Source: Prevotella sp.
Lineage (GTDB): Bacteria; Bacteroidota; Bacteroidia; Bacteroidales; Bacteroidaceae
Reading direction: 5' to 3'
DNA: 35,875 bases
Assembly: GCA_017458005.1 (NCBI GenBank)
Contig: JAFTGH010000007.1
Location: 1-35,875, forward strand
Both the position numbers and the translations under genes were made by a program. Shown here in pieces: positions 2,243 to 35,502 of the stretch. Positions within the stretch are counted from its first letter, which is position 1, and every line of letters begins with the position of its first letter. The notes beneath the pieces were generated by a model, which had not been told where the DNA came from, searched no databases, and saw only the letters and a program-made list of their open reading frames with translations.

Positions 2243-2689
2243 ATGGCTCACACGGAATTACAACTCGACAATCAGATTTGTTTCCGTCTTTATACGGCAG
2301 CGCGACTGATCACACAGGCTTACACGCCTATGTTCAACGAACTGGGTATCACCTATCCGCAGTACCTTGTCATGATGGTGCTCTGGGAGGAAGATGCCCT
2401 GCCCGTAAATGACATAGCCCATCGGCTGCTGTTAGAGACGAATACGGTCACTCCATTGCTACAGCGAATGGAGAAACAAGGACTTGTCGCCCGTAAGAAA
2501 GGGAAAGAGGACAAGCGACAGCAGATTGTCAGTCTGACAAAGAAAGGCAAGGATATGGAGGAGAGAGCCTACCAACTCATACCCGCCGGCATGGGCAAAC
2601 GACTCTCTTCCTGTCCGCTGATGTTGGAGGACTACCAACAGTTAGCACAAGAACTAGACACATTAATAGACTCACTAAAAAAAGAATGA
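2243..2689 (+). CDS. ohrR: OhrR-type MarR-family redox repressor
   Basis: This 148-residue winged-helix regulator matches the OhrR branch of the MarR family, which represses peroxide-defence genes until a reactive cysteine is oxidised by organic hydroperoxide. The sensing cysteine is C13 in LDNQICFRLYTAAR, equivalent by position to the single N-terminal cysteine of Bacillus OhrR. The helix-turn-helix and wing run through about residues 50-100 (DIAHRLLLETNTVTPLLQRM, then the basic KGKEDKR wing). The conserved ITYPQYLVMMVLWE segment is also present. It sits between two glutathione peroxidase genes with gaps of one and three bases, so all three are probably co-transcribed and it probably controls its own operon through the inverted repeat at 1503-1556. 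Confidence 0.88.
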   Translation: MAHTELQLDNQICFRLYTAARLITQAYTPMFNELGITYPQYLVMMVLWEEDALPVNDIAHRLLLETNTVTPLLQRMEKQGLVARKKGKEDKRQQIVSLTKKGKDMEERAYQLIPAGMGKRLSSCPLMLEDYQQLAQELDTLIDSLKKE

Positions 2690-31556: not shown

Positions 31557-31578
31557 AGTCCCCTGATTCAGGGGGACT
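31557..31578 (+). terminator. Probable terminator of the PUL operon
   Basis: AGTCCCC / GGGGACT forms a 7-bp GC-rich stem with a short loop, 27 bp after the last PUL gene. The following stretch (TAGTTCCTATTTC) is T-rich but lacks a continuous T-run, so termination may be partial. Confidence 0.55.
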
Positions 31579-31613: not shown

Positions 31614-31644
31614 TTTGGCGATTCAAAAATTCTTAGTACCTTTG
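31614..31644 (+). promoter_or_regulatory. Consensus promoter of the structured RNA
   Basis: TTTG at 31614-31617, a 19-bp gap and TACCTTTG at 31637-31644 form an ideal Bacteroidota promoter. The predicted start, near 31650, lies just before the first stem of the RNA. Confidence 0.85.
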
Positions 31645-31649
31645 CATTC

Positions 31650-31880
31650 AAGCACCACCTATAATGCTTTAGCGAAAGTGGGTGGTGCGACTTTAGTTGA
31701 AATATAACAAGCGTTTGCTGTTATTCGGATCACTTCTGAATCTAGCACATTCAATAGTTCCAATCCGAAAGAATAAGTTGCAAGCGTCTGTGCGTTAGCA
31801 TGGACGTGACTTATCTGGATTGGTAGGCAAGTGCTAGAGCCGAGAAGTGTGGATGAGAAAATCGTTCATGCTTCTTTTTT
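31650..31880 (+). ncRNA. Candidate structured RNA / leader, about 230 nt
   Basis: No supported coding frame occupies this interval, but nested complementary pairs do. A 5' hairpin pairs 31652-31659 with 31681-31688 (GCACCACC/GGTGGTGC). A long rod pairs 31731-31736 with 31844-31849, 31741-31748 with 31831-31838 (TCTAGCAC/GTGCTAGA), 31760-31766 with 31817-31823, 31773-31778 with 31809-31814, and 31785-31793 with 31798-31806 around a GTTA loop. All are perfect apart from two G-U pairs. It has its own promoter and terminator. It may be a free small RNA (a 6S-like rod is one option) or an attenuator leader for the methyltransferase operon. No Rfam class is recognised. Confidence 0.7.
31844..31880 (+). 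terminator. Intrinsic terminator before the methyltransferase
   Basis: Bases 31844-31856 pair with 31862-31874 over 13 positions (five of them G-U) around a GAAAA loop, followed by six T. The left arm is also used by the outer helix of the upstream rod, so the two folds compete. The stop point is 54 bp before the methyltransferase start, and no second clear promoter lies between. Confidence 0.75.
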
Positions 31881-31933
31881 GCTCTACCTTGCTTACATCT
31901 CCGATGATAAGCATACGCCAAAATGTATAACGT

Positions 31934-33061
31934 ATGGCAAATACTAACCTTGCAAATGCCAAGACGGCGAAGAACGACGAGTTCTATACGCAATATACCG
32001 ACATTCAGAAGGAGATAAACGCCTATCTGGAATACGACCCTAATGTGTTTCGTGGTAAGACGGTGCTGCTGCCTTGCGACGACCCAGAATGGAGCAACTT
32101 TACAAAGTTCTTTGCGCAGAACTTTGAAGCATTTGGTCTGAAAAAACTAATCAGTACAAGTTATGCCGTTGAATCAAAACGAATAAAGGACTGGCAACCG
32201 ACACTATTTGAAACTGACAGCCCTTACTATGATGCCGACAAAAGCCGTACCAATGGCAAGATATTCGTTTTAGACGAAGACATTAACGGTGATGGTCGTT
32301 TCAACATCAACGATTTGCAATGGTCGTATCTTGAAGGTGATGGGGATTTCCGCAGTGATGAAGTGAAAGCACTACGAGACGAAGCGGACATCATTATTAC
32401 CAATCCTCCTTTCTCGCTATTCAGAGAGTTTATGTCATGGTTGATTGAATCAGGGAAACAATATACAATTATAGGCAACGTAAATGCCATTTCTTACAAA
32501 GAGGTATTCCCTCTTATCCGAGATAACAAAATGTGGATGGGTGTAAGTATTCATAGTGGAGACCGAGAATTTGGGGTTCCAGAAACTTATCCTCTTGAAG
32601 CGGCAGGATGGCGTGTTGATGAAAAAGGAAACAAATATATACGAGTAAAGGGAGTTAGGTGGTTTACGAATATTGATCATGGCCTAAGGCATGAACCTTT
32701 CCCTTTAATGACAATGGAAGACAATATCCTTTACTCAAAACACAAAGAAATCAAAGGGAAAAAATATGTTCATTATGAAAACTATGATGCAATAGATGTC
32801 CCTTATTCAGATGCCATCCCTATCGATTTTGAGGGTATGATGGGCGTTCCCCTAACATTCCTTGATAAATATTGCCCAGAGCAGTTTGAGATAATCGGAC
32901 AGACACAAGGCGATTCTGGCAAAGAACTTGGTTTGAAACCATATCCACGCGAACTAAAGAAGTTGAACAATAGCCTTAGGGATGGGCAACTCTATTATAT
33001 TGACGAGAACGGAATCCCACAAAAACCATACGCAAGAATTATAATCCGCAAAAAACAATAG
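31934..33061 (+). CDS. EcoRI-type adenine-specific DNA methyltransferase
   Basis: This 375-residue protein fits the EcoRI methyltransferase family (MTase_EcoRI_MT): N6-adenine methylation using S-adenosylmethionine. The catalytic motif NPPF is at residues 157-160 in [16 protein letters not shown]. An early [17 protein letters not shown] (44-60) takes the place of the cofactor-binding motif and is typical of this family. The start [19 protein letters not shown] is also characteristic. The next gene, a DUF262-HNH protein, starts 2 bp after the stop. The partner of classical EcoRI methylase is a type II endonuclease; none is seen, so the HNH or GIY-YIG protein may fill that role. Base composition is more AT-rich than in the PUL, hinting at separate acquisition. 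Confidence 0.9.
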
Positions 33062-33063
33062 CT

Positions 33064-34239
33064 ATGCAAACGACATTATTAACCGACCTTACGGTCAAAG
33101 AGATTTGTGAGGGCTTTGTTTACAATCAGTTGGAAGGCAAAGGCCTGTTTGGATGGTCTGGCAAACTGACTATCCAGCCAGAGTATCAGCGAAACTATCT
33201 TTATGCCGAGAACGAAGGCAAGAAAGAAATTGCTGTCATAGATAGTATGCTGAAAGGTTATCCTATTGGACTAATCTATTTCAACGAACCCGAAGAAGGC
33301 AAGTATGAAATTCTGGACGGGCAACAGCGTATAACAAGTATCGGACGTTTCGTTACAGGGAAATTTGCCATCAAGGACAAATTCGGAATGGAGCAATACT
33401 TTACGGGGCTGACTAAGGAGGAGCAAGAAAAGATTCTCTCCTACAAATTGCTCATCTATGTCTGCAATGGCACGGAAAAGGAAATCAAGGAATGGTTTGA
33501 AACCATCAACATTGCAGGTGTTCCATTGAACAAGCAGGAACTTCTTAATGCTACATATAGCGGCCCATTTGTGACAGAGGCCAAGAAAGTTTATAGCAAT
33601 TCCCGTAGCCCGCAATTGCAGAAGTGGGGATGCTATATCAAAGGCAACGCTAACCGCCAAGACATTCTTCATGCTGCACTTGCATGGGTGGCAAAAGGAG
33701 AAGAGAACATTGGCGGCTACATGAGCCAGCACCGCTACGAAAAAAGCATAGAGGAACTACAGACTTATTTCGACACGGTGATAGAATGGGCTAAAACGTT
33801 GTTCGGTGAGACGAAAGATGAAATGAGAGGTTTGGAATGGGGAGCCTTCTATGAGAAGTATCATGCTAATTCATATAACCCAGCCAAGTTGCAACAGCGA
33901 GTAAACGAACTATATGCTGACGAGTATGTAACAAACAAACGCGGTATCTTTGAATATGTGCTTGGTGGAGAAACAGACCAGTATCTGCTAAACATCCGCA
34001 TCTTTGAGGACAGCGTAAAGAAAACTGTGTATGCTCGTCAGACCAACGAAGCCAAAGAGCAAGGTATCAGCAACTGCCCAGAATGTGCCAAAGGACATGA
34101 GAATGTACGCACCAAGATTTACAAGTTCAACGAAATGGATGCCGACCACGTTACTGCATGGAGCAAGGGCGGCAGCACAGATATAGAAAACTGCCAGATG
34201 TTGTGCAAGACACATAACAGGGCAAAAGGGAATAGATGA
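33064..34239 (+). CDS. DUF262-HNH protein (candidate nuclease)
   Basis: This 391-residue protein joins an N-terminal DUF262 domain to a C-terminal HNH nuclease. DUF262 is marked by QPEYQR near residues 38-43 and the nucleotide-binding signature DGQQR at 85-89; in GmrSD- and SspE-type systems this domain senses modified DNA or couples NTP hydrolysis to cleavage. The HNH end shows zinc cysteines C338, C341, C377 and C381 and the catalytic set H362 (DADHVTAW), N376 and H384. All key residues are present, so it is probably active. It lies between a methyltransferase (2 bp upstream) and a GIY-YIG gene (4-bp overlap), suggesting restriction of foreign DNA by a modification-aware enzyme. The real substrate is unknown. 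Confidence 0.88.
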
Positions 34240-34871
34240 TTATGGAATACGGAATAGTTTATCTTCTAACCAATCCTGTAATGCCAGGTCTTGTAAAGAT
34301 TGGCATGACAACACAGGAAGATATAGACAAGAGGATGAAGGAACTCTATACAACGGGCGTTCCTGTTCCCTTTGAGTGTCAGTTTGCTTGCAAGGTGAAG
34401 AAAGGCGACTGCGCCAAAATTGAGAAAGCCCTGCACACGGCTTTTGCTCCGCAGCGCATCAATGCCAACCGTGAGTTCTTCCGTATTCAGGTGGAACAGG
34501 CAAAGGCCATTCTTGAACTATTCCATCACACGGACGTGACGGAAGAAGTGAGCGACGAGATAGAAAACGACCTGACCGACGACGACAAGGCCGCATCGGT
34601 TAAGGCACAGATTCACCGTCCACCGCTCAACTTCTACGAAATGGGGATGCAAAAAGGCGACGTGCTTGTATGGAAAGACGACCCCACCGTTTCCGTTACG
34701 ATAATCTCGGAGCGTAGAATCAACTATGAGGGCGAGGAAACTTCCATCAGTGCGCTCTCTGCCAAGTTGAAAGGCTACAAAGTCAAGCACATTGCCCCCG
34801 GTGCTCACTGGCTCTATAAGGAAAAACTTCTCAGCGAAATTTACGACGAAACTTATCCGTTTGAAGAATGA
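34236..34871 (+). CDS. GIY-YIG (T5orf172/MUG113-type) protein with C-terminal beta domain
   Basis: This 211-residue protein starts with a GIY-YIG-type nuclease fold: [10 protein letters not shown] (5-14), GLVKIGMT (18-25), R33, E63 and the NREFF motif at 78-82, as in the T5orf172 group. After an acidic linker (about 100-120), residues about 128-205 form a compact domain ([40 protein letters not shown]) similar to the small RAMA/DUF4357-like domains seen in restriction-linked proteins, thought to contact modified DNA. That match is by eye. It overlaps the DUF262-HNH gene by 4 bp and ends the operon. A nicking or recognition role in the same defence system is the simplest reading. Confidence 0.82.
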
Positions 34872-34973
34872 AATCAAATTATTGCGCATTATGGAGAATA
34901 AGCCAAAGACGAGGACAAGAATAGGTCGCCTCTAAAACGTATCTCATTTCATGGGAATAACGAATAATTTTAC

Positions 34974-34981
34974 TATCTTTG
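34974..34981 (+). promoter_or_regulatory. -7 promoter element of the zinc-ribbon gene
   Basis: TATCTTTG lies 23 bp before the ATG at 35005. It falls inside a longer possible reading frame from 34951, which argues that translation begins at 35005. Confidence 0.65.
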
Positions 34982-35004
34982 TCAATGTAAATAATATAAC
35001 GAAT

Positions 35005-35502
35005 ATGAAGAAAAGATTTGAATCAGTAGAGAAGCCTGAGAAATGCCCTAAATGTGGGGCACCTGTATATGAAATATTATATGGTTTGCCTGTGATGTCG
35101 GAAGAAGAGTATTTCGAGACTTATCATGAGCATGTCAGTTATGGTGGATGTTGTATTTCTGAAGATGACCCAGAATGGCAGTGTAGTAAGTGTGGCGCAG
35201 AGATATACAACGTAACGCATATTCCATATAGGAAGAAAGATGCATTTGCTAAGTTAGATGCCATGCTGAGCGAAGAGGATAAGGAGATAATGACAAAGGG
35301 AGATACCTGCGAATATCATTTCTCGCTTGGGATGTGGATTCGGAATAACTGGATATACGAACAGGAAGAGGAATATGTCAAGTTCTTAGCAGAGATGTTT
35401 GGTAATGATTCTCTGTTCTTTCAACCTGATGATCTTTCTGACAGAATCATCAGTTCGTATCAGCGACATCTAAGAGGAATGAAGAAAAAGAAGCGGGGCT
35501 GA
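35005..35502 (+). CDS. Small zinc-ribbon protein of unknown function
   Basis: This 165-residue protein has an N-terminal zinc ribbon with two CxxC knuckles: CPKCGAP near residues 13-19 and CSKCGAE near 60-66, plus a CC pair between them. The rest is acidic and helical (KLDAMLSEEDKEIMTKG, EEEYVKFLAEMFG) and ends in a basic tail (MKKKKRG). There is no signal peptide or membrane segment. I chose the ATG at 35005 over 34951 because a promoter -7 element lies between them. It has its own promoter, separate from the nuclease operon, and a strong terminator follows. I do not recognise the family; nucleic acid or protein binding is possible. Confidence 0.75.
   Translation: MKKRFESVEKPEKCPKCGAPVYEILYGLPVMSEEEYFETYHEHVSYGGCCISEDDPEWQCSKCGAEIYNVTHIPYRKKDAFAKLDAMLSEEDKEIMTKGDTCEYHFSLGMWIRNNWIYEQEEEYVKFLAEMFGNDSLFFQPDDLSDRIISSYQRHLRGMKKKKRG

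Follow-up and report, generated by a model that had tools for sequence, protein, structure and literature searches.

Directly ahead of a restriction-modification operon in Prevotella sp. lies a folded RNA that is likely the 5′ leader of the restriction-modification mRNA, acting in cis as a riboswitch-like conditional terminator. This reading is drawn from sequence comparison: the fixed position ahead of genes, the two mutually exclusive folds, each conserved separately, and the T run make a conditional terminator the best explanation. The RNA belongs to a large family whose members stand before restriction systems of many kinds as well as surface-protein genes, and it probably serves them as an on/off valve.

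The leader was studied in a window of 35,875 nt, the whole stretch of DNA analyzed here. A 404-nt intergenic gap separates the end of the upstream ORF (31529) from the start of a methyltransferase gene (31934), and the promoter, folds, and terminator of the preliminary description fall within it. The operon encodes an EcoRI-type adenine methyltransferase assigned by domain match (PF13651; 31934..33061, + strand), a GmrSD_N-HNH protein classified by PADLOC as a type II restriction enzyme (33064..34239, + strand), and a T5orf172 protein. The T5orf172 protein, which matches PADLOC candidate PDC-S57 at 262.7 bits, and a DUF6794 protein are situated 3′ of the restriction genes (34236-34871 and 34951-35502) and may be members of the same defense operon. 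An NCBIfam scan of the window's genes gave none above its cut-offs. A terminator-like hairpin found by a generic terminator scan (31557-31578) may mark the end of the upstream gene.

Leader architecture and its exclusive folds

The preliminary description of this DNA had pointed to a promoter and a 5′ hairpin. The promoter, of Bacteroidota type, is read directly on the + strand at 31614..31644 as TTTG-N19-TACCTTTG, with TTTG at 31614-31617, 19 nt, and TACCTTTG at 31637-31644. Within 200 nt upstream of the core, TANNTTTG occurs in 94 of 99 relatives; in background windows from coding sequence, the count is 109 of 1427. The −33 element is matched in only 45 of these relatives. A generic sigma-70 scan, whose scope does not extend to Bacteroidota promoters, found no promoter at the leader. 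The 5′ hairpin P0 is a predicted fold (31652..31688, + strand; arms 31652-31659 / 31681-31688) that is kept in relatives with inserts of variable size. Downstream of it, the hairpin H1 (AACA-AGC-GTTT-GCT-GTT; 31706..31722, + strand) is near-invariant in sequence among relatives.

The predicted folding energy of the RNA at 31648-31883 is −88.9 kcal/mol, whereas its shuffles average −59.4 (z −7.24), and the rod at 31723-31852 alone reaches z −6.09; in each case, 0 of 200 shuffles were as good. Covariation supports a core on the + strand composed of the closing helix H10 (31731-31737 / 31843-31849), helices H3 (31742-31748 / 31831-31837), H4 (31760-31766 / 31817-31823), H5 (31773-31778 / 31809-31814), and H6 (31784-31793 / 31798-31807), and the small hairpin H7 (GGC 31826-31828 / GCC 31839-31841). 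Model-based alignment of 99 distinct, diverse sequences showed double changes in 40 of the 43 core pairs (1019 cells versus 256 in shuffles), and 96.5% of core cells were paired, compared with 31-48% in slid controls. Consensus nucleotides are retained in H1, around H5-H6, and at unpaired positions. A MAFFT alignment of 14 distinct EcoRI-type sequences gave 17 of 43 core pairs double-changed, with 58 cells against 23.5 in shuffles (0/500). The model's structure guided alignments A4 and A5, and A1, A2, and A8 were independent of structure. In the structure-independent EcoRI-type MAFFT alignment, H10 is only 61% paired because gaps misalign it; 6 of its 7 pairs are double-changed there.

Hairpin H7 is present in 98 of 99 rows when its limits are set by the structure and eight offsets are permitted, and its arms read GGT/ACC in 52 rows and GGC/GCC in 44. 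Because the 3′ strand of H3 lies inside this covarying hairpin, the rod is more likely pseudoknotted than nested, and H3 is probably a loop interaction. The region 31731-31849 had earlier been described as a five-helix nested rod; abundant compensating changes in homologs uphold its helices, and the nesting is the part that is probably wrong. Three copies in the same genome (L284, L289, and L290) carry extra hairpins of up to about 60 nt inserted in the H5-H6 arm.

The terminator proposed earlier is likewise read directly (31843..31880, + strand; arms 31843-31856 / 31862-31875), as is its T6 run (31875-31880). The segment AGAAGTG (31843-31849) is shared with H10 and pairs either with 31731-31737 in the rod or with the right arm of the terminator; the exclusive folds first suspected from this shared strand both display compensating changes. 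Constrained folding in the window places the H10 state at −59.8 and the terminator state at −62.0 kcal/mol, and as the 3′ end advances from 31872 to 31876, completing the terminator right arm, the predicted optimum switches from one to the other. By the generic scan, the terminator (15 pairs) is one of 3 matches in 1601 nt, and since shuffles give 1.1 ± 1.0, it is not striking on that measure alone. Its helix is 87.8% paired in the 14 distinct EcoRI-type sequences, with 7 of 14 pairs double-changed.

In a swap test across 100 loci, pairing of the H10 3′ strand with its own downstream arm is more favorable than with a swapped one by a mean of 3.99 kcal/mol (p=2e-13; reversed control, p=0.48), and 39 of the 100 loci fall in the best 5% for the terminator arm. 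An earlier version, with 71/100 loci in the best 5% for H10, 24/100 for the terminator arm, and 16/95 for H2 (below), was diluted because some loci share the same strands; the repeat used differing partners. A run of at least 5 T in 7 nt is found in 96 of 100 relatives versus 22% of background, and at least 6 T of 7 in 49 versus 4%, many T runs being broken. Over the 100 loci, the state without H10 is favored by a median of 3.6 kcal/mol (interquartile range, 0.1 to 5.6), with the H10 state favored in 25.

A second exchange is possible at the segment CGTTCATGC (31863..31871, + strand), which is complementary to the right arm of H6 (31798-31806). Contiguous pairing of such a segment with the H6 right arm extends to 7 or more pairs in 96 of 100 relatives, versus 37% when shuffled; own partners outperform swapped ones at p=3.7e-9, with a reversed control (p=0.024) that is not quite flat. 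For class I leaders, the two pairings have about the same strength (medians, −13.3 and −13.6 kcal/mol), with the alternative ahead in 53 of 100.

Outside the rod, further conserved pairings occupy the stretch that separates the terminator from the start codon (31934). H11 (TAGAGC / GCTCTA; 31835-31840 / 31881-31886, + strand), which would enclose the terminator after read-through, is 95.5% paired in the EcoRI-type leader alignment, with 4 of 6 pairs double-changed. The 5′ strand of H2, TTATTCGGA (31721..31729, + strand), sits between H1 and H10 and is complementary to 31900-31910 on the same strand, ahead of the start codon. Family-wide, the own H2 partner is better than a swapped one by 2.69 kcal/mol (p=4e-9; reversed control, p=0.41), with 32 of 93 loci in the best 5%; H2 is nearly unvarying within the EcoRI set. 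A fold at the ATG (31912-31917 / 31931-31936, + strand) recurs as a hairpin of 4-6 pairs in 12 of 15 EcoRI-type leaders, the other 3 having other short pairings there. Taken together, the read-through structure is weak against shuffles when assessed on all of the EcoRI leader alignment: its paired cells were equaled by 27/500 shuffles, its double-changed pairs by 24/500, and its covariation score by 0/500. One further helix drawn by eye, H12, was rejected at 37% paired on the EcoRI leader alignment.

Relatives and the genes behind them

A second close copy, 83% identical, is present in the same genome ahead of another pair of EcoRI-type methyltransferase and GmrSD_N-HNH genes. Searching with the leader by blastn gave matches in 16 of 150 genus genomes, and 15 full-length copies, the window's included, lie directly 5′ of an EcoRI-type methyltransferase as judged by its N-terminal sequence. 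Among the four short matches, L016 and L017 precede type III methyltransferases (PADLOC), and L021 precedes a type III restriction-like gene identified by eye. The fourth, L018 (1438-1581, 55 bits), has no same-strand ORF of at least 90 aa within 1000 nt and is possibly a remnant. The window leader and L100 had no blastn match in phages, nor did L091 in plasmids, and on these three queries a phage or plasmid origin was rejected. A single pattern match on a viral contig (L213) falls inside a long phage ORF and was taken as chance.

To reach more distant relatives, we used covariance models of the core: R1, trained on EcoRI-type leaders, and R2, trained on 101 diverse matches. At the genus level, R1 matched 223 of 398 genomes, and at the family level 131 of 301, from 20 of 30 genera; R2 matched 69 of 198 order genomes (56 of 151 genera). 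In a phylum sample, R2 matched only 14 of 198 genomes, of which one was the window's own and 12 of the 13 others belonged to the same class. Copies per genome reach at least 15, and the window's own genome has at least 12 (10 by R2 and 2 by a third model, R3); these are lower bounds, as no more than 7, 10, or 15 candidates were scored for each genome. In order-level genomes such as G701, G857, and G763, several copies sit close to contig ends, no more than a few hundred bases away; in such fragmented, many-copy assemblies, it is as if the RNA or its neighbor were repeated there. At L086, a second, weaker copy (2294-2447, minus strand; 40 bits) is situated some 3.4 kb downstream from the first.

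A second class of leaders emerged from 30 further EcoRI-type methyltransferase loci, fetched after matches in 38 of 100 genus genomes. R1 matched 7 of the 30 strongly, and 19 others have a related leader with the same layout, giving 26 of 30; no leader was found with any of the three models at L194, L209, L211, and L196, the last being cut by its contig. The two classes are homologous by weak cross-match (R2 on L202, E=1.4e-4; R3 on L185, 2.4e-4). R3 matched 62 of 150 genus genomes, and 24 of 30 copies fetched with it precede EcoRI-type genes recognized by their DEFYT motif, with two more cut by contig ends. Class II leaders show 10 double-changed pairs in the closing helix and loop interaction, both of which are 100% paired. 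The pairing that competes with H6 comprises 9-13 contiguous pairs in 19 of 19 class II leaders and is stabler than H6 in 18. Double changes occur both in H6 and in this alternative T:H6 pairing, which has 13 double-changed cells versus 5.7 in shuffles (0/500) and a number of double-changed pairs matched by 101/500 shuffles. Some class II leaders (e.g., L183, L192, and L197) end in a long hairpin, TTGATAGT...ACTATCAA, directly before the start codon.

We then considered the neighbors of 100 copies hand-picked from the listed genus- and family-level matches of R1. Counting both strands, the first downstream ORF of at least 100 aa shares the RNA's orientation in 96 of 100 copies (3 are opposite and 1 meets a contig end), and the strand of the nearest upstream ORF is evenly split, 47 to 45. 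The first same-strand ORF starts 36-146 nt past the core in 94 of 99, with starts partly trimmed by script. Neighbor families were assigned by scanning cluster representatives and carrying the result to cluster members. Restriction-modification genes follow 73 of the 100 copies: 24 SNF2/PLD helicases (20 then followed by a gene of the cluster holding Eco57I/N6-type methyltransferases), 11 EcoRI-type, 11 MmeI, 6 Eco57I/TaqI-type IIG, 5 type I HsdM, 3 short Eco57I-type, 3 of a PADLOC type II methyltransferase family, 7 other methyltransferases or restriction enzymes, and 3 weak calls made partly by eye (L097, L121, and L084). At L084 and L121, the genes behind the leaders look broken or truncated. 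The other 27 are mostly envelope or secreted proteins and include PAP2 phosphatases (4), MBOAT (2) and Acyl_transf_3 (3) acyltransferases, BspA-type (2), lipoprotein-like, and assorted proteins. Because R1 was trained on EcoRI-type leaders, the sample favors restriction genes, which follow 34 of 40 higher-scoring and 39 of 60 lower-scoring copies, and the true neighbor mix is therefore more even. Of the 12 copies detected in the window's own genome, 2 stand before EcoRI-type genes, 8 before secreted or outer-membrane proteins (called by eye from signal-like starts, 4 with a Pfam match above cut-off), and 2 before unknown genes. This diversity rules out an RNA tied to EcoRI-type methyltransferases alone. 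Behind one leader is a gene for a WYL/WCX-domain regulator (L163, 5040-6032, minus strand), a kind of regulator often tied to defense genes.

Mechanism and competing explanations

In the proposed mechanism, transcription would start near 31650, as judged from the promoter, and the nascent RNA folds into a compact, probably pseudoknotted domain closed by H10, as covariation shows. As 31850-31880 is made, the terminator arm could, on sequence and predicted energy, capture the 3′ strand of H10, and the terminator with its T run would end the transcript before the methyltransferase gene. If the H10 domain were held together, the terminator could not form and the operon would be transcribed. In the read-through RNA, 31721-31729 is predicted to pair ahead of the start codon, a supported pairing that might act as a second control. 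With so little energy separating the two states, their ratio could be set by a modest input (a metabolite, a protein, temperature, or transcription speed).

Three features that characterize an attenuator or riboswitch-type leader are present: a covarying structured domain, a fixed position ahead of a same-strand gene, and a conserved terminator exclusive with the domain, although not every locus is significant alone. The preliminary description had suggested a conditional leader that limits a methyltransferase/nuclease operon. A leader with exclusive folds is supported by the compensating changes, but its specificity for that operon is not, given the many gene types involved. The same device stands before many unrelated restriction systems and envelope genes, and it therefore probably senses something general; the gene set suggests a leader that does not sense the encoded enzyme.

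As a special case of the conditional terminator, the domain closed by H10 might be a riboswitch proper that binds one small molecule, favoring read-through and so turning on restriction and surface genes, which we regard as possible but doubtful. A junction-closing helix that shares its 3′ strand with the terminator, the loop interaction, the conserved unpaired nucleotides, and the unrelated downstream genes all fit such a switch; however, these genes share no metabolic pathway, no ligand is known, and the RNA matches no Rfam riboswitch. The conservation of H1 and the H5-H6 arm in sequence beyond pairing would also fit an antiterminator or other RNA-binding protein that picks the fold at H1, H6, or the 5′ hairpin. 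Such conservation of paired sequence does not single out a bound protein, however, and in the loci read no candidate protein gene adjoins the element; we consider this explanation unlikely. The small energy difference between the states is compatible with an unregulated attenuator or noise device, in which near-balance of the two folds fixes low or bimodal expression without a signal, and restriction and surface genes are typical of those variably expressed. The domain interior (H3-H7 and unpaired positions), however, is conserved beyond the needs of a fixed attenuator, making a signal-free device quite improbable. Least credible, and very improbable, is a free small RNA, 6S-like (as the preliminary description had entertained) or trans-acting, merely located ahead of the operon: it would account for the RNA's own promoter and terminator, its stable rod, and the solitary relative L018, but is disfavored by the near-constant distance to a same-strand gene (adjoining in 96/100), the complementarity to the RNA's own pre-start segment, and the lack of a 6S match.

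Two further candidates were rejected. An antisense RNA of the restriction system is incompatible with a fold, promoter, and T run that lie on the sense strand ahead of the gene. Identity with 6S or another Rfam RNA fails because no Rfam family, 6S models included, matches in the window or at the RNA in the 18 diverse loci scanned; nor is the element gene-independent, as a 6S RNA would be.

The conditional terminator can be extended to a bolder scheme, which we advance tentatively and with more doubt than conviction: a hitherto undescribed superfamily of Bacteroidia RNA sensors, present in 12 or more copies per genome and working by strand exchange in two places, in which one cue switches on many types of restriction system along with envelope and surface genes, forming a defense and surface regulon controlled by RNA, and whose ligand is an orphan.

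Relation to known systems and significance

With Rfam release 15 at the gathering threshold, no family was found in the window and none at the RNA in 18 diverse loci, so that the housekeeping RNA against which the earlier reading was to be checked did not appear. A permissive search of the window gave two matches, both on the other strand and far below threshold. In comparison with terminating riboswitches and attenuators as generally understood, the leader likewise has a T run, a position ahead of a gene, and a closing helix that shares its 3′ strand with the terminator; it differs in lacking an Rfam match, in the second exchange at the H6 right arm, and in preceding restriction and envelope genes. 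It resembles 6S RNA (Rfam family RF00013) in its long rod-like fold, but has no match to it, is multi-copy, and is tied to a downstream gene.

A further 6S-type Rfam family, RF01685, is given in the 2010 catalogue of 104 structured RNAs (PMC2864571), the main text of which contains neither the word restriction nor Prevotella. The structured Bacteroidetes RNAs in that catalogue come from the same phylum, but no Rfam family built from them matches here (PMC2864571). The main texts of two B. thetaiotaomicron transcriptome papers do not contain the word restriction, and one such paper identifies riboswitches by homology to known families. Under the terms tried, we found no earlier description of such a leader in the open literature; a 2017 catalogue of 224 structured RNAs was compared through Rfam only.

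Restriction systems must not cut the DNA of their own host, and control of these systems by proteins is known. RNA-level control also has precedent among type II restriction-modification genes, as a 2013 review of restriction control describes EcoRI and Eco29kI as governed by antisense RNAs from reverse promoters inside the genes; its main text does not contain the word riboswitch (PMC3874152). In contrast to those antisense RNAs (PMC3874152), the element described here is a sense-strand leader common to several restriction types.

Together, these findings point to one structured leader common to type I, II, IIG, MmeI, and helicase-linked systems in about one-third of the sampled order genomes (69/198). 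If this is true, defense in these bacteria would share one layer of RNA-level control, and the leader would be an orphan sensor with a signal now open to direct search. The presence of the leader ahead of surface proteins as well hints that a single cue may serve both defense and envelope change.
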